From Pseudonocardia broussonetiae (GTDB lineage Bacteria; Actinomycetota; Actinomycetes; Mycobacteriales; Pseudonocardiaceae), in assembly GCF_013155125.1 (NCBI RefSeq), contig NZ_CP053564.1, forward strand, positions 1,123,501 to 1,187,500: DNA of 64,000 nucleotides, given 5' to 3'. The position numbers were made by a program, and so were the translations under genes. This document shows, in pieces, positions 12,256 to 19,116 of the stretch (within the stretch, counting starts at the first letter, position 1; each line of letters begins with the position of its first letter). The notes beneath the pieces were generated by a model. The model was not told the origin of the DNA and ran no database searches. It saw only the letters and a program-made list of their open reading frames with translations.

Positions 12256-13071
12256 GTGACCGCAGTCGTCGTCGGAGGTCGGATGAAGCGCCTGATCGTC
12301 GGACTCGTGGTGCTCGCCGGAGTGCTCGTGGGGCTCGACTTCGGTGCCGCCGCGCTCGCCGAGTCGGCCGTCTCCCGGCAGATGCGCGAGCAGATCGGCC
12401 TGCCCGACGACCCGGACGTCCGCATCAACGGCTTCCCGTTCGTCACGCAGGCGCTGGCCGGGCGCTACTCCAGCATCGACGTCACCGCCGACCGGCTGCA
12501 GGTCGGCGACCTGCAGGAGGTCGAGATCGTCGCGCAGCTCCGCGACGTCGACGCCCCGCTGTCGGAGGTGCTCGGGTCCGGTCCGACGTCGCTGCGCGTC
12601 GCCGAGGCCGACGGCACCGTCCGGATCGGCGCCGACGACATCGAGCGGCTGCTGGGCAGCGTCGACAAGCTGCGCATCGAGTCGCTCGACGCCGACGCGC
12701 TCGAGGCGGCCGTCGAGGACGGGGCGGACCCGTCGCTCGCCGACGTCGACCCCGACACGGTCGCCCGGCTCGTCGGCACCACCGCGGTGCTCGGCGAGGA
12801 CACCGAGGTCTCCGCGATCGTCGGCCTCGACCTCGCCGAGGGGCTCGTGCGGATCGTCCCGCGCGACGTCCGCATCGGCGGCCCCGACGCCGCGCCGCTG
12901 CCGGAGTCCGTGCAGAGCTCGCTGGCCGACCGGTTCACCGTCGAGGTCGACCCGGGCTCGCTCCCGCTGCAGGTCACGCCGACCGAGCTGAAGGCCGTCG
13001 ACGGCGTCCTGGAGATCAGCGGCAGCACGACCGACCTGCTGCTCGGCGCCCCGGCCACCACGACCGGGTGA
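12256..13071 (+). CDS. LmeA-like phospholipid-binding protein (DUF2993)
   Basis: Predicted protein of 271 aa. Two starts are credible: GTG 12256, preceded by a -10 TACGGT at 12243-12248 (leaderless), and ATG 12283, preceded by GGAGGT, giving MKRLIVGLVVLAGVLVG as an uncleaved or cleaved signal anchor. The rest is a secreted domain with repeated V-x-V-x-A-D beta patterns (SIDVTADRLQVGDLQEVEI), the DUF2993 pattern. Mycobacterial LmeA (Rv0817c, from memory) supports lipomannan elongation. Gene order beside glnR agrees. Substrate here is inferred. Confidence 0.82.
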   Translation: MTAVVVGGRMKRLIVGLVVLAGVLVGLDFGAAALAESAVSRQMREQIGLPDDPDVRINGFPFVTQALAGRYSSIDVTADRLQVGDLQEVEIVAQLRDVDAPLSEVLGSGPTSLRVAEADGTVRIGADDIERLLGSVDKLRIESLDADALEAAVEDGADPSLADVDPDTVARLVGTTAVLGEDTEVSAIVGLDLAEGLVRIVPRDVRIGGPDAAPLPESVQSSLADRFTVEVDPGSLPLQVTPTELKAVDGVLEISGSTTDLLLGAPATTTG

Positions 13072-13113
13072 CCCCCGCGGACTAAACCGGCACCGGCCGG
13101 CGTTGGCGCGCGT

Positions 13114-13563
13114 GTGGACCTCCTCGGCGTGACGGTGCTGGTCGCCGCCCTGGTGCTCGCCACGGCCGTGGGCCTGGTGCTGCGCCGCCGCGACGGGCGC
13201 CTGCGCGCCACCGCCGACCGCCGCGGGGCGAGCGGTGGTGGGGCGGCCGGCGGGTGGGCCCTGGCCGGCACCGCGCCCGCCGACGGCGACCGCGTGCTGC
13301 TGCTGCAGCTCTCCTCCCCGGTCTGCACGCCGTGCCGGCGCACCGCGGAGCTGATCGACGACCTGCGGGCGCGGCAGCCGGGCGTCGCGCACGCCGAGGT
13401 GGACGTCGCCGAGCGGCCGGAGGTCGCGCGCGCCCTCGGGGTGCTGCGCACGCCCACCGTCGTCGCCTTCGACCGGTCCGGCGCGGAGTTCGTCCGGGTC
13501 TCCGGCCTGCCCCGCGCGGCCGAGCTGGAGGCCGCGCTCGCCCCGGCCCTGGGTGCGCTGTGA
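13114..13563 (+). CDS. Membrane-anchored thioredoxin-family protein
   Basis: Predicted protein of 149 aa starting at GTG. One membrane helix lies at about 4-22 (LGVTVLVAALVLATAVGLVL), then a Gly/Arg linker and a thioredoxin fold at about 50-148. The redox motif is CTPC (SSPVCTPCRRTAELID) and the cis-proline loop is LRTPTVV. No clear SD precedes the start. It is followed by a Cys-rich leader ORF and sulfur-transfer genes, so a role in thiol or sulfur-carrier redox is likely. It matches ThiX (Rv0816c) in position, from memory. Confidence 0.83.
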   Translation: MDLLGVTVLVAALVLATAVGLVLRRRDGRLRATADRRGASGGGAAGGWALAGTAPADGDRVLLLQLSSPVCTPCRRTAELIDDLRARQPGVAHAEVDVAERPEVARALGVLRTPTVVAFDRSGAEFVRVSGLPRAAELEAALAPALGAL

Positions 13564-13618
13564 GGAACGGGTCCGTCCGACCTGCGGGATCACGCTCCTG
13601 CAGGTCGGGACGCTGGGT

Positions 13619-13624
13619 TAGGCT
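13619..13624 (+). promoter_or_regulatory. -10 element of the Cys-leader/sulfur operon
   Basis: TAGGCT ends 6 nt before GTG 13631. This spacing predicts transcription starting on or next to that GTG, giving a leaderless small ORF. The same hexamer precedes phoU, purL, purB and purD. Confidence 0.6.
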
Positions 13625-13630
13625 CGTACC

Positions 13631-13705
13631 GTGTTCTGGCCGTTGACCCGTCGCCGCGCAGTGGACCTGTGCCGCGTCGGCAGCTGCCTGTGTCACGCCT
13701 CCTGA
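13631..13705 (+). CDS. Leaderless Cys-rich leader peptide, candidate cysteine attenuator
   Basis: A 24-codon ORF from GTG to TGA, too short for routine gene calling. It ends LCRVGSCLCHAS, with three Cys codons in the last 11 positions. Leaderless polycysteine small ORFs are established cysteine-responsive attenuators in mycobacteria, upstream of sulfur genes including this cassette (from memory). Here the stop codon lies inside CTCCTGAG (13699-13706), which pairs with the SD region CTCAGGAG (13731-13738) of the next gene. Slow decoding of Cys codons would place a ribosome over the left arm and free that SD. No downstream frame is fused to it. Confidence 0.68.
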   Translation: MFWPLTRRRAVDLCRVGSCLCHAS

Positions 13706-13738
13706 GCATCCGCGTCCCTCATCCGCTCGTCTCAGGAG
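13699..13738 (+). promoter_or_regulatory. SD-sequestering stem after the Cys leader
   Basis: An 8-bp perfect pairing, CTCCTGAG (13699-13706) with CTCAGGAG (13731-13738), spans a 24-nt loop. The right arm contains AGGAG, the SD for DUF4395 (ATG 13746, spacing 7 nt). The left arm overlaps the last codons and stop of the leader peptide. Confidence 0.65.
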
Positions 13739-13745
13739 CACCTCC

Positions 13746-14195
13746 ATGTCCGCAACGGACCCCCCGCTCGATCCGCGCGGCGTCCGCTTCGCCGCGGCGC
13801 TGTCCACCGTCGTGCTCGCGGTCGTGCTGCTCACCGGCAGCGGCTGGCTGCTCGCCGCGCAGGCCGTGGTGTTCGCGCTCGCCGCGTTCGCCGGGCCGCG
13901 CTTCGCGCCGTACCCGCTGCTGTTCCGCACGCTCGTCGCACCGCGGCTGAGCCCGCCCACCGAGCGCGAGGACGCCGCCCCCGTGCGGTTCTCGCAGCTC
14001 GTCGGGTTCGTGTTCGCCGTCGTCGGCACGGTCGGCTACCTCACCGGGCTCTCCGTGCTCGGCGTCGTCGCCACGGCGTTCGCGCTCGTCGCCGCCTTCC
14101 TCAACGCGGCCTTCGGCTTCTGCCTGGGCTGCGAGATGTACGCCCTCCTCCACCGATTCCGCACGCACCGCAACCAGCAGGGAGCCACAGCATGA
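13746..14195 (+). CDS. DUF4395 membrane protein
   Basis: Predicted protein of 149 aa with four hydrophobic segments: about 15-50 (two helices), 85-105 and 108-125. The DUF4395 pattern is visible as DPRGVRFAAALS near the N-terminus and FGFCLGCEMYALL near the C-terminus, with a CLGC dithiol at the membrane surface. The family commonly accompanies thioredoxins and rhodaneses; its biochemical role is unknown. Its stop overlaps the ATG of the sulfurtransferase (ATGA), so translation is coupled. Expression is probably gated by the stem that covers its SD. Confidence 0.85.
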   Translation: MSATDPPLDPRGVRFAAALSTVVLAVVLLTGSGWLLAAQAVVFALAAFAGPRFAPYPLLFRTLVAPRLSPPTEREDAAPVRFSQLVGFVFAVVGTVGYLTGLSVLGVVATAFALVAAFLNAAFGFCLGCEMYALLHRFRTHRNQQGATA

Positions 14196-15037
14196 GCCGC
14201 GAGGACGTCCTCGTCACCGCCGATTGGGCCGAGAAGAACATCGGCACCGACGGCATCGTGTTCCTCGAGGTCGACGAGGACACCGCCGCCTACGACGGCG
14301 GCCACCTGGCCGGCGCCGTGAAGGTCAACTGGACCACCGAGCTCCAGGACTCCGTCCGCCGCGACATCGTCGACGCCGACCAGTTCGGCGCGCTGCTCTC
14401 GGCCAAGGGCGTCTCCAACGACGACACCGTGGTCCTCTACGGCGGCAACAACAACTGGTTCGCCGCCTACGCGTACTGGCAGTTCAAGCTGTACGGGCAC
14501 GCCGACGTGAAGCTGCTCGACGGCGGCCGCAAGAAGTGGGAGCTCGACGGGCGCCCGCTCACCACCGACAGCACCGAGCGCACCCCCACGACCTACACGG
14601 CGAAGCCCGCCGACACCTCGATCCGCGCCTTCCGCGACGAGGTCGTCGAGGCCATCGGCAGCCAGAACCTGGTCGACGTCCGCTCGCCCGACGAGTTCTC
14701 CGGCAAGATCCTGGCGCCGGCGCACCTGCCGCAGGAGCAGTCGCAGCGGCCCGGCCACATCCCCGGCGCCATCAACATCCCGTGGAGCAAGGCGGCCAAC
14801 GAGGACGGCACGTTCAAGTCCGACGAGGACCTCGCCAAGCTGTACGGCGACGAGGGCTTCGACGGCTCGCGCCCGACCATCGCCTACTGCCGCATCGGTG
14901 AGCGCAGCTCGCACACCTGGGTCGTGCTGCACGAGCTGCTCGGCCACGGTGACGTCAAGAACTACGACGGCAGCTGGACCGAGTACGGCTCGCTCATCGG
15001 GGTCCCGATCGAGCTCGGCGCGGGGAGCAAGGGCTGA
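14192..15037 (+). CDS. cysA2: Two-domain rhodanese, thiosulfate sulfurtransferase CysA2 type
   Basis: Predicted protein of 281 aa, two rhodanese domains (about 5-125 and 150-275). The active-site cysteine sits in YCRIGERSSHTW, the CRIGER loop typical of actinobacterial CysA/SseA-type thiosulfate sulfurtransferases. The first domain lacks an active cysteine, as usual in tandem rhodaneses. It moves sulfane sulfur from thiosulfate to an acceptor thiol. It overlaps DUF4395 upstream and SseC downstream, forming a compact operon. Confidence 0.92.
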   Translation: MSREDVLVTADWAEKNIGTDGIVFLEVDEDTAAYDGGHLAGAVKVNWTTELQDSVRRDIVDADQFGALLSAKGVSNDDTVVLYGGNNNWFAAYAYWQFKLYGHADVKLLDGGRKKWELDGRPLTTDSTERTPTTYTAKPADTSIRAFRDEVVEAIGSQNLVDVRSPDEFSGKILAPAHLPQEQSQRPGHIPGAINIPWSKAANEDGTFKSDEDLAKLYGDEGFDGSRPTIAYCRIGERSSHTWVVLHELLGHGDVKNYDGSWTEYGSLIGVPIELGAGSKG

Positions 15038-15336
15038 TGTGCGGCGCTCCTGACCAGTCCGTGTCGCTGCCCCCGGGCACCGACCTCAGCAAGGAGACCG
15101 TCCTCGCCGGGCGCGTCGTCGCGGGCGGCGAGCCCGTCGGCGGCGCCTTCGTCCGGCTGCTCGACGGCACCGGCGAGTTCACGGCCGAGGTCGTGGCCAG
15201 CGCGAGCGGCGACTTCCGCTTCTTCGCCGCCCCCGGCACCTGGACGCTGCGCGCGCTGAGCCGCAGCGGCAACGGGGAGGCCGTGCTCGAGGCCGACGCC
15301 CCCGGCCTGCACCAGACGCTGGTGTCGGTGGCCTGA
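15037..15336 (+). CDS. sseC: SseC-like protein (DUF1416)
   Basis: Predicted protein of 99 aa starting MCGAPDQ; the start overlaps the cysA2 stop by one base (TGATG). It is a small beta-sandwich, carboxypeptidase-regulatory-like domain (VLAGRVVAGGEPVGGAFVRL, GDFRFFAAPGTWTLRAL). DUF1416/SseC genes accompany cysA2 in mycobacteria and many actinobacteria and are linked to sulfur metabolism. The exact role is unknown. The N-terminal CG pair is conserved as far as I recall. Confidence 0.9.
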   Translation: MCGAPDQSVSLPPGTDLSKETVLAGRVVAGGEPVGGAFVRLLDGTGEFTAEVVASASGDFRFFAAPGTWTLRALSRSGNGEAVLEADAPGLHQTLVSVA

Positions 15337-15407
15337 GCGCCCCTCCACCCGGCCACCGCGCCACGGCCACCCGCTCCACGGCGCCGCTCCACCGCCACCG
15401 CCACGTG

Positions 15408-15458
15408 GCAGGAAGGCCACCTTCACGCAACCTCGTTGTGTGAAGGTGGCCTTCCTGC
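15408..15458 (+). terminator. Long hairpin terminator, copy 1 of a dispersed family
   Basis: CAGGAAGGCCACCTTCAC (15409-15426) pairs perfectly with its complement at 15440-15457, and the stem continues inward through GCAAC/GTTG(T) to a 3-nt loop. The core GCAGGAAGGCCACCTT recurs in a second hairpin at 20731-20785. It closes the sulfur operon. Confidence 0.85.
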
Positions 15459-15495
15459 AACAGGCGGGCCGGTGGTGCCACTAGGGTGGCTCCCC

Positions 15496-15624
15496 GTGCA
15501 CTGGTTCTTCACCGGCCTGCTGATCGCGGCCAGCGGCGGCACGGTGGCCTACACCGGCTACCTGCTCCGACGGCTGTTCACCACCGAGCCGACGCCCGGG
15601 ACCGTCACGGAGCCGGCGTCGTGA
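15496..15624 (+). CDS. Small single-span membrane protein (42 aa)
   Basis: GTG 15496 follows a -10-like TAGGGT (15482-15487) by 8 nt with no SD, so it is probably leaderless. The peptide starts MHWFFTGLLIAASGGTVAYT, one hydrophobic helix, then YLLRRLF and a Thr/Pro/Glu-rich tail. I know no family for it. Its stop overlaps the GTG of the nitrobindin gene (GTGA), so the two are translationally coupled and may work together. The frame is also open upstream into the hairpin, which is not a plausible start. Confidence 0.6.
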   Translation: MHWFFTGLLIAASGGTVAYTGYLLRRLFTTEPTPGTVTEPAS

Positions 15625-16247
15625 GCGGGCCCGACGGCGAGATCCCCGGCACCATCACCGGCCCGGCCAACGCCGCCCCCGACTCGCCCCGCCGCAACCG
15701 GCCGCGCTTCGAGGACCTCCCCGTCCCCGACGACACCGCCAACCTGCGCGAGGGTCCCGACCTGCACCAGCAGTGCCTGGGCCTGCTGCCGCTGATCGGC
15801 GTGTGGCGCGGGGCGGGCGAGGTCGTCTACCCGACGATCGACGGTCCCTTCGCCTACGGCCAGCAGCTCGTCTTCGCCCACGACGGGCGCCCGTTCCTGT
15901 CCTACGAGGCGCGCGCCTGGCTGCTCGACGACGACGGGAAGGTCATCCGGCCCGCCGCCCGGGAGACGGGCTTCTGGCGCCCGCAGGAGGGCAGGCAGCT
16001 CGAGGTGCTCCTAACCCACGCCACGGGGATCGTCGAGGTCTTCTACGGCCGCGCGCTCGACCTCCGCTCGTGGGAGATCGAGACCGACGCCGTCGTGCGC
16101 ACGCCGACCGCGCAGGACGTGCAGGCCTCGCACCGGCTCTACGGGCTCGTGGAGGGCGGCGACCTCGCCTACGTCGACGAGCGCGCGATGATGGGCCAGC
16201 CGATGCAGCCGCACCTCTCGGCGCGCCTGAGCCGCATCGCGGGCTGA
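15621..16247 (+). CDS. Nitrobindin-like heme-binding protein (FABP-like barrel)
   Basis: Predicted protein of 208 aa starting at GTG overlapping the preceding stop. The N-terminal 50 residues are polar and disordered. The barrel (about 55-208) begins LLPLIGVWRGAGEV, carrying the family motif G-x-W-x-G-x-G, and ends MQPHLSARLSRI with a histidine placed like the heme ligand of nitrobindins. Family members bind ferric heme b and can isomerise peroxynitrite. Position corresponds to Rv0813c, from memory. It lies 24 nt from a convergent gene. Confidence 0.88.
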   Translation: MSGPDGEIPGTITGPANAAPDSPRRNRPRFEDLPVPDDTANLREGPDLHQQCLGLLPLIGVWRGAGEVVYPTIDGPFAYGQQLVFAHDGRPFLSYEARAWLLDDDGKVIRPAARETGFWRPQEGRQLEVLLTHATGIVEVFYGRALDLRSWEIETDAVVRTPTAQDVQASHRLYGLVEGGDLAYVDERAMMGQPMQPHLSARLSRIAG

Positions 16248-17093: not shown

Positions 17094-18953
17094 TCACGCG
17101 GAGCGTGACGACGAACTGGGCCGGGAGTCGCTCGTCCGGCCGTCGGACTGGTCGGTCCGACCGGTGCCGGGCGCCGGGGAGAGGACCGTCGGCTCGTCGG
17201 GGCGGACGGTGCCGGACGGCGACGGCTCGGCACCCGCGGCCTGCTCCGGGCGCCGCACGACCGACGTGCGCTCGCCCGCGGCCTGCGCATCCGGCGTGGT
17301 CGCACGCTGCGCCGGCCGGAACAGGTCGGCCGGTTCGGGCTCGGGCGCGCTGCGCGGGCGCATCGACGGCCCGCTGTCGTTCACGGCCGGGTAGGCACCG
17401 GTCGGCAGCCGGTGGGCGGCCTTGCCGGCCTCGCGCTCGGGCCGGGCCGTGGGCGCCTTGTCCTTCGCCGTGACGACGTCGGACGCCGGGGAGGCGGTGG
17501 GAGAACCACCCGGACGTGGGTCACCCGACTGCGCCCGGGCCGCCTGCGGCTGGCCGTTCTGGGGCTGGCCGTGGGACGCCTGCCCGTTCTGGGACTGGCC
17601 GTTCTGGGACTGGCCGTTCTGGGACTGGCCGTTCTGGGGCTGCCCGTTCTGGGGCTGCCCGTTCTGGGGCTGCCCGTTCTGGGGCTGGCCGTTCGACGCC
17701 GGCCCGTTCTGCGGCCGGCCGTTCTGCGCACCGGCGGCGGCCCCGGGGCGGACGGCCTCGGTCTGCTGCTGCTGGGCCGGCTGCGATGCACGGGTGATGG
17801 CGGCCCCGCCGGGGGTACCGACGCCCCGGTCGGCCGGGCGCTCGCCGTCGGACCGCTCGGTCCGGTTCTCGGCAGAGGCAGAGGGGGCCGAGGCGGCGGG
17901 GGACGCGGAGGACCCGGACGGACGGGCGGAACCGTCACGCTCACCGGCCGACGATCCGGACCCGACCGGCTGCGCGCCGGTGGACCGGGCGGCGGACGGG
18001 GACCCGGCAGGCTGTGCCCCCGCGGGCTGCGAGCCCGCGGACGGCGACCCGGCCGGCTGCGACCCGGCCGACGGCGAGCCCGGAGCCGACGACGGGGACG
18101 AGGCGCCGGCGGGCGGGCCGGCGTGCGAACCCGTGGCCCGGACGGGCGTCGGCGACGGCGTGCCGCGACCGGGCGTGGGCGACGGCCGGGACGGCTCGGC
18201 GGACCCACCGGGGCCGCGGCGGTCGCCGGAGCCCGGGCCCGGGGGCAGCGCGGTGGTGGCCGGGCCGGAGCCCGGCGCGCTGCCGGTCGGGGCCGGTGCC
18301 GGCTTCTCCGGCGACGGGCCCGGGGGGCCGGCGGCGGGGGCGGGCTGCGACGCGCGGCGCGCGTCGCCGTCGGGCGCACCGGGCGCGGGGCGGGGCGGGG
18401 CACCGGCGGGGCGGGGGCCGAACTCGGGCCGGCCGTGCCGGGAGAGGTCGCCGTCGCGGCGACCCGGCAGCGGGTGGTTGCCCGGCTCGTGCGCGGGCAT
18501 CGCCGCGGTCGGGGCCGCCAGCAGGCCCTCGAGCTGGGAACGCATCCGCGTGAGCTCGGCCAGCACGGCGTCGCGCTGCCGGATGAGGTCGGCGACCTGG
18601 GCGCGCACGCCCTCGGTCTCGGCGCGGGCCGCACGGTGGGCGTTGCGCCGGATCTCGGCGGCCTCCTCCTCGGCGGCCGCGAGGATGCTCTCCATGCGGT
18701 CGGTGAAGGTGCCGATGGTGTCCGGGTCGCCGGCCTGGCCGCCGGGCCGTGGGCGCGGCGTCGGACGGGGCCGCATCGGCTGGCTGGCGGAGACGACGGG
18801 CATCGGCTGACTGCGCGCGACGTCGAGATCGGCGCGCATCCGGGCGAGGACCCGCTGCAGCCGGTCGACGTGCTCGTCGACCTGGCGCCGGTCGTAGCCG
18901 CGCAGCACGACGTCGAAGCGTGGCGCGCCGGGCACCCCCGCGTCACTCGTCAT
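17094..18953 (-). CDS. DivIVA-like coiled-coil protein with low-complexity C-terminus
   Basis: Predicted protein of 619 aa starting at ATG 18953 with GGAGGG upstream; in-frame codons further upstream give no family-like start. Residues about 12-42 (RFDVVLRGYDRRQVDEHVD) match the DivIVA/Wag31 N-terminal membrane-curvature motif. A coiled coil spans about 75-155 (TDRMESILAAAEEEAAEIRR). The remaining 460 residues are Pro/Gly/Ser/Gln-rich with NGQPQ/NGQSQ repeats. Such proteins act in polar growth, division or as scaffolds. The tail probably forms a flexible hub. The gene is divergent from a Fur-family gene. Confidence 0.75.
   Translation of the reverse strand: MTSDAGVPGAPRFDVVLRGYDRRQVDEHVDRLQRVLARMRADLDVARSQPMPVVSASQPMRPRPTPRPRPGGQAGDPDTIGTFTDRMESILAAAEEEAAEIRRNAHRAARAETEGVRAQVADLIRQRDAVLAELTRMRSQLEGLLAAPTAAMPAHEPGNHPLPGRRDGDLSRHGRPEFGPRPAGAPPRPAPGAPDGDARRASQPAPAAGPPGPSPEKPAPAPTGSAPGSGPATTALPPGPGSGDRRGPGGSAEPSRPSPTPGRGTPSPTPVRATGSHAGPPAGASSPSSAPGSPSAGSQPAGSPSAGSQPAGAQPAGSPSAARSTGAQPVGSGSSAGERDGSARPSGSSASPAASAPSASAENRTERSDGERPADRGVGTPGGAAITRASQPAQQQQTEAVRPGAAAGAQNGRPQNGPASNGQPQNGQPQNGQPQNGQPQNGQSQNGQSQNGQSQNGQASHGQPQNGQPQAARAQSGDPRPGGSPTASPASDVVTAKDKAPTARPEREAGKAAHRLPTGAYPAVNDSGPSMRPRSAPEPEPADLFRPAQRATTPDAQAAGERTSVVRRPEQAAGAEPSPSGTVRPDEPTVLSPAPGTGRTDQSDGRTSDSRPSSSSRSA
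17550..17694 (-). repeat. 15-bp tandem repeats encoding NGQPQ/NGQSQ
   Basis: About ten near-identical 15-bp units in the DivIVA-like gene encode NGQPQ or NGQSQ; one unit is degenerate (ASHGQ). They preserve the frame. The unit resembles the 15-bp repeats of the LCP gene in length but not in sequence. Confidence 0.85.
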
Positions 18954-19116
18954 CGCTAGCCCTCCCGTGCGTGCCGTCACCGTGCATTCCGCCGAGGGTA
19001 GGGGGGTCGTTTCGCCCGATCCCGGCCGTTCACCCTTTCGCAGCATACCGAGAGGGCCGTCGACCGGCAGCCGCGGTTCGGGACGAAGCGGCCGACGGGC
19101 ACCCCGTGCGGCGGCC

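Follow-up and report, generated by a model that had tools for sequence, protein, structure and literature searches.

In the attenuators of the trp, leu and his operons, a ribosome that pauses on the control codons of a short leader alters the structure of the RNA downstream, and the leu leaders provide a precedent for an uncommon codon at the control site. In arrest peptides, conserved residues are found at a fixed distance before the codon on which the ribosome stalls. The closest described system is mycobacterial. In the available part of one report (PMC4633059), a small ORF with a cluster of Cys codons lies upstream of cysA2, is conserved in mycobacteria and carries 70S ribosomes in M. smegmatis; cysteine-directed attenuation was offered there as a speculation. 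The accessible portions of two further papers (PMC9031893, PMC13236596) cite translational attenuation by cysteine in M. smegmatis from Canestrari et al. 2020, with contiguous Cys codons being reported for the M. smegmatis leader in the former and arrest peptides being cited in the latter.

The leader analysed here shares with the Ms5788A leader and the mycobacterial cysA2 ORF its place upstream of DUF4395 and cysA2, the core LTxRRAVDLCRV, a leaderless promoter geometry and a predicted stem that contains the SD of the next gene. The mycobacterial precedent named in the initial annotation is borne out by the small ORF upstream of cysA2, as far as the available part of that report goes (PMC4633059), and the attenuator design claimed there has turned out largely right, although what it corresponds to is the leader already described at this operon in mycobacteria and not a new design. 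The described switch is thereby extended to Pseudonocardia and its family. A difference lies in the predicted fold: in the mycobacterial loci L058 and L061 the Cys codons pair with the SD region, whereas the left arm in the window is made of the last codon and the stop. Compared with the trp, leu and his attenuators, the proposed pausing on leader control codons would likewise reshape the downstream RNA, but at this locus it would be the SD and not a terminator that is masked, the start would be leaderless and the Cys codons are few. The likeness to arrest peptides, i.e. conserved residues at a fixed spacing before a proposed stall codon, is here one of sequence conservation only.

Anatomy and spread of the leader

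The window (the whole stretch of 64,000 nucleotides that was analysed) is part of a 7.29-Mb genome (4 contigs) and holds, on the + strand, genes for an LmeA-like and a thioredoxin-like protein, followed by the leader, DUF4395, a rhodanese-type sulfurtransferase and DUF1416 (Table 1). The last two genes we take to be cysA2 and sseC, respectively, from family and place, and the closest named relative of the DUF4395 gene belongs to Pseudonocardia oceani, at 97 percent for the best segment. Profile matches of the leader and of the genes back the sulfur operon that had been proposed downstream.

Table 1. Coordinates of the leader, the arms of the predicted stem and the downstream genes in the window
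Feature	Position	Strand	Remarks
-10-like box TAGGCT (TANNNT)	13619..13624	+	6 nt upstream of GTG
Leader ORF	13631..13705	+	GTG start, 24 sense codons, TGA 13703-13705
Cys21 codon TGT	13691..13693	+	tenth codon after V of VDL (+10); proposed sensing codon
Left arm CTCCTGAG	13699..13706	+	last codon, stop codon, next base
Right arm CTCAGGAG	13731..13738	+	contains SD of DUF4395
DUF4395 gene	13746..14195	+	first gene after leader; Pfam PF14340, 162.1 bits
cysA2-type sulfurtransferase gene (presumed cysA2)	14192..15037	+	two rhodanese stretches, Pfam PF00581; start overlaps DUF4395 stop
DUF1416 gene, sseC-type (presumed sseC)	15037..15336	+	Pfam PF07210, 139.5 bits; start overlaps cysA2 stop

The leader ORF encodes MFWPLTRRRAVDLCRVGSCLCHAS and is separated from the TAGGCT box by the spacer CGTACC (13625-13630); box, 6-nt gap, 24-codon ORF, stop and SD stem had all been annotated correctly, base for base. 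The ORF had also been said to end with three Cys codons. Three are indeed present, but as codons 14 (TGC, 13670), 19 (TGC, 13685) and 21 (TGT, 13691) of 24 they are spaced apart and do not close the ORF, and the window leader, unlike the Ms5788A leader, does not carry the contiguous Cys codons by which a polycysteine leaderless attenuator is recognized. Of 85 distinct leaders, 78 have an in-frame ATG or GTG that is preceded, at 6-8 nt, by a TANNNT box, whereas 200 shuffles of the upstream 40 nt yielded 2.9 such leaders on average and never more than 8. Where the box is present, its distance to the start is mostly 7 nt (66/78; 6 nt in the window) and the base preceding the start codon is mostly C (71/78). 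This conserved promoter geometry supports the leaderless start that had been postulated, and we infer that the leader mRNA would begin at the GTG itself.

With regard to family membership, the window leader scores 42.7 bits against NF042933 (“Ms5788A family Cys-rich leader peptide”), below the cut-off of 45, and is therefore not filed as a formal member, although it does lie upstream of DUF4395-cysA2, as is expected of that family. It scores 31.1 bits against NF042934 (“putative leader peptide”), above the cut-off of 27, and shares with it the VDLxR core and the terminal Cys; that profile, however, describes a general motif before many sulfur genes, and a match to it implies no mechanism. The comparison with related genomes that had been called for was carried out, and the leader was found throughout the genus and family, with box and stem recurring. 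NF042933 matches occur in 60/60 genomes of the genus (E up to 1e-5) and in 147/150 of the family (E up to 1e-3), the own genome being counted in both, and in 0/14 control genomes, with the curated cut-off being passed in just 2/150 family and 7/60 genus genomes in this six-frame search. A search independent of the profile detected a leader upstream in 67 of 80 DUF4395 loci from named records; in the remaining 13 it was absent from the coding strand of the available stretch, which for L105 comprises just 13 upstream bases. A leader with the same core also stands upstream in the mycobacterial DUF4395 loci L058, L061, L073, L074, L078, L079 and L081.

The stem at the SD of DUF4395

The claim that the stop region pairs with the DUF4395 SD is supported by exact complementarity and by covariation in relatives. 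CTCCTGAG is the exact reverse complement of CTCAGGAG, giving an 8-bp stem, and the AGGAG within the latter lies 7 nt upstream of the DUF4395 ATG (13746). This stem is part of the minimum-energy fold with and without the DUF4395 start; the hairpin 13692-13748 reaches -15.9 kcal/mol (z -2.90, 3/200 shuffles as good), and the fold of the leader RNA 13631-13748 has a z of -2.49, again with 3/200 shuffles as good. A structure hiding the SD of the next gene, as is expected of an attenuator, is thus predicted.

SD and start could be located for 88 of 97 leader loci. Thirty of these (29 distinct) combine a TGA stop with TCAGGAG, and in every one of the 30 the nucleotide following TGA forms a pair with the one preceding TCA, the flank pairs being G-C in 9, C-G in 15, G-U in 4, U-G in 1 and A-U in 1; the A-U case (L107) comes from a genome of the same genus as the window. 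Swapping right arms between loci lowers the flank pairing from 2.23 to 1.76 (0/5000 permutations reach the own value) and the pairing over all 14 positions from 7.47 to 7.22 (115/5000 permutations), and matched arms have modestly better duplex energies than swapped ones (p 0.027), with relatedness not controlled in any of the three comparisons. In the genus sample of 36 distinct leaders, 32 with the start located, there is a run of at least 6 pairs in 26 and of at least 7 in 18, while the base beside the stop is unpaired in 4 of 16 TGA/TCA loci. Shuffled left arms pair as well as the natural one in 67/2000 trials for the window and in 150, 115, 34 and 11 for L028, L029, L030 and L032, respectively. 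For L039 and L047 the corresponding numbers are 811 and 1004 of 2000, so that the arms pair no better than shuffles and the stem is not supported there. Across the relatives, the predicted SD stem recurs beside the stop codon with compensatory changes.

Taken together, the leader and the SD stem very probably constitute a translational attenuator of the DUF4395 operon that would respond to cysteine. In the proposed model, transcription would start at the GTG of the leaderless ORF. With sufficient Cys-tRNA, the ribosome would reach the TGA and depart, following which the last codon and the stop could pair with the DUF4395 SD, shutting the operon. With Cys-tRNA in short supply, the ribosome would wait while its A site holds the Cys21 codon UGU, and its leading edge would cover the left arm, leaving the SD open and allowing DUF4395 to be translated. 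It had been proposed that the SDs of DUF4395, cysA2 and sseC are all opened in this way. That of DUF4395 is indeed inside the stem, but those of cysA2 and sseC are outside, and a response of these two genes would therefore need coupling; they would be translated after DUF4395 by way of the overlapping stop and start codons, ATGA at the DUF4395/cysA2 junction (14192-14195) and TGATG at the cysA2/sseC junction (15035-15039).

Which codon would open the SD was modelled on the assumption that a ribosome covers the RNA up to 13 nt beyond the first base of its A-site codon, for those 54 of the 62 distinct DUF4395-linked leaders whose SD and start were located, with the window being represented by L027 (identical leader, nearly the same spacer). 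In L027, the SD has an unpaired probability of 0.13 in free RNA, of 0.08, 0.17 and 0.07 with the ribosome at codons 14, 19 and 20, and of 0.31 and 0.30 with the ribosome at codon 21 and at the stop codon, respectively. Thus, of the earlier idea that a ribosome slowed on the Cys codons opens the SD, this fold model retains Cys21 and discards Cys14 and Cys19. Since occupancy of the stop codon opens the model SD as well, the two states must differ in how long the ribosome stays. Among seven Pseudonocardia loci, codon 21 brings L029 from 0.07 to 0.29, L028, L030 and L032 begin to open one codon earlier, and L039 and L047 do not open. Over all 54 loci the change in the mean is small, from 0.23 in free RNA to 0.33 with the ribosome; a ribosome at codon +10 raises the value by at least 0.1 in 21 of the 54 loci and lowers it as much in none. 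In 26 of the 30 stem loci, UGU and the stop codon begin 12 nt apart. Ribosome-driven opening of the SD as a rule across all clades was also considered; it is weak over the 54 loci and is not claimed.

That SD opening is weak outside some clades would be understandable if regulation operated through a terminator or Rho instead of SD masking, and classical amino-acid leaders do work by transcription attenuation. Such a mechanism is nevertheless improbable here: a simple consensus scan found no terminator-like site on the + strand of 13050-15600, and the covarying stem contains the SD. Sigma-70-like sites were likewise absent from that strand and stretch.

The conserved UGU codon and the peptide around it

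Cys21 is the Cys common to the leader family. Its codon (+10) is UGU in 152, UGC in 2 and a stop in 1 of 155 distinct leaders, and after thinning to 65 representatives of less than 80 percent identity the numbers are 62, 2 and 1. Identical leaders were counted once, L013 with its stop at +10 was scored as a miss, and L198 (not a leader) as well as L168 and L169 (MDL motif, unscored) were dropped from the set. UGU occupies this place in 85/85 Ms5788A-type leaders and in 74 of 77 wider-family leaders (UGC 2, stop 1), a fixed Cys place being favoured by the profile for the latter 77 and not for the 62 DUF4395-linked ones. The third position is G or C in 5 percent at +10, as opposed to 69 to 97 percent at 16 other codons from -6 to +9. 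As a background, UGU accounts for 7/142 Cys codons in window genes (42 ORFs picked by length and codon-position GC) and for 21/257 in DUF4395 and the long ORF following it at the 80 loci. The question is therefore raised of why the shared Cys codon should almost always be UGU in genomes that elsewhere prefer UGC, and why the peptide around it is fixed. Among 45 tRNA matches of the window genome (98.5 percent complete), a single tRNA-Cys with the anticodon GCA was detected, so that UGU should be read by G-U wobble and might be decoded more slowly.

The peptide around Cys21 is conserved at the amino-acid level. The search expression fixes V, D, L and the Arg after VDLx, and the conservation of D and Arg was accordingly not used as evidence; the estimate was made on six codons that the expression does not force (L-6, T-5, R-3, R-2, A-1 and V+5) in the 62 DUF4395-linked leaders found without the profile. 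These give a pN of 0.116 against a pS of 0.532, compared with 0.648 and 0.611, respectively, at codons -8 and -7, and this purifying selection supports the earlier claim that the leader is translated. In the available part of PMC9094748, unusual codon usage was noted for six Cys-rich leaders, with rare codons being named as a possible reason; the UGU bias at the shared Cys, together with the conservation of the peptide, is new as far as a narrow literature search could establish.

These observations suggest that cysteine would most likely be sensed through the UGU in its fixed register and not through the number of Cys codons, and it is possible that the nascent peptide contributes to the pausing. 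In a broader form, which we put forward tentatively, as plausible rather than probable, the actinobacterial sulfur leaders would be one-codon sensors, in which the nascent peptide (R..VDLxRVxS) makes the ribosome pause at one wobble-decoded UGU in a fixed register, the polycysteine tail of mycobacteria being an addition. A plain codon-count attenuator, in which Cys codons alone matter, however they are spelled, and the other residues of the peptide are filler, is likewise possible without being probable: it would account for the contiguous Cys codons of M. smegmatis (reported in the accessible portion of PMC9031893) and for the Cys-rich tails of seven mycobacterial-type leaders upstream of DUF4395. 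It is disfavoured, however, by the low number of Cys codons, which is two in 53 and one in 2 of the 85 Ms5788A-type leaders, with UGU at +10 being the only Cys codon in 37 of 77 wider-family leaders. It would also leave the constraint on the unforced non-Cys codons unaccounted for, as well as a spelling that differs by place, UGU at +10 and UGC at +3, the latter codon being Cys in 80/85 Ms5788A-type leaders and UGC in 78 of these 80.

A further possibility, which we regard as rather unlikely, is that RNA structure, and neither decoding nor the peptide, is what preserves the UGU and the codons of the motif. Folding predictions place an A opposite the third base of UGU in 33/54 loci, compared with 605/1775 for the other U of these RNAs, an excess for which RNA structure has to be retained as a rival reason for UGU. 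Consistent with that, the conserved motif of the window leader contains a predicted hairpin (GCGCAG/CUGUGC, 13655-13675), and the Ala codon at -1 in relatives is skewed (GCG 41, GCA 22, GCC 6, GCT 1; n=70), which hints at a constraint at the RNA level too. The A partners, however, lie at varied places, upstream or downstream, the third base of UGU is predicted to be unpaired in the window and in six of seven other Pseudonocardia loci, and other codons of the motif vary at the third position without a change of amino acid. Folding may thus contribute to the choice of UGU in other clades, as the modelled folds suggest.

The base after UGU (13694 in the window) is C in 71/85 Ms5788A-type and 64/77 wider-family leaders, even though the residue after the conserved Cys can be R, P, L, H or Q; a codon-context preference for C behind UGU may account for this.

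Further leaders of the genome and neighbouring elements

A search of the window genome with NF042934 (E up to 10) returned 18 matches, of which the window leader and 11 others (L009, L010, L012-L019 and L022) are leader-like, L022 at an E of only 0.56; the remaining six were taken as chance hits. The 11 further leaders precede genes for two OsmC-like proteins, a sulfite/nitrite reductase-like protein, an O-acetylhomoserine/serine sulfhydrylase, four flavin monooxygenases (one above the SfnG cut-off), an FAD-NAD(P)-binding protein, a family 5 solute-binding protein and an acyl-CoA dehydrogenase-like protein, which belong mostly to sulfur-linked families. UGU is at +10 in 10 of the 11. If the one-codon reading is true, about a dozen operons in one genome, mostly sulfur-linked, would run on this element, and if the synonymous change of UGU to UGC abolished regulation, many actinobacterial operons would have their cysteine gauge in the decoding of one codon and not of a run of codons.

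Within one genome, similar peptides are each encoded immediately upstream of an operon of their own, which fits a cis role. This argues, along with the lack of a Pfam domain in the leader, against a small trans-acting protein as the function of the ORF, which is highly improbable even though conservation at the level of the peptide would be expected of one.

In L013, before the FAD-NAD(P)-binding protein gene, the stop falls exactly at the conserved Cys place. Downstream of the DUF1416 gene, two 27-nt arms (15405-15431 and 15435-15461; 93 percent complementary) with 3 nt between them form an inverted repeat without a T run, which is possibly the end of the operon transcript, and within 13050-15600 there is one terminator-like site on the - strand. 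At gathering scores, the sole Rfam match in the 64,000-nt window, with none at the leader, is a 6C RNA (RF01066; 57419-57493, +; 81.1 bits against a gathering score of 47). Further downstream of the operon, the window encodes a Nitrobindin/THAP4-type heme-binding protein (15621-16247, +; Pfam PF08768, 171.7 bits) and a 650 aa ORF with a run of NGQPQ-type repeats (17094-19046, -).
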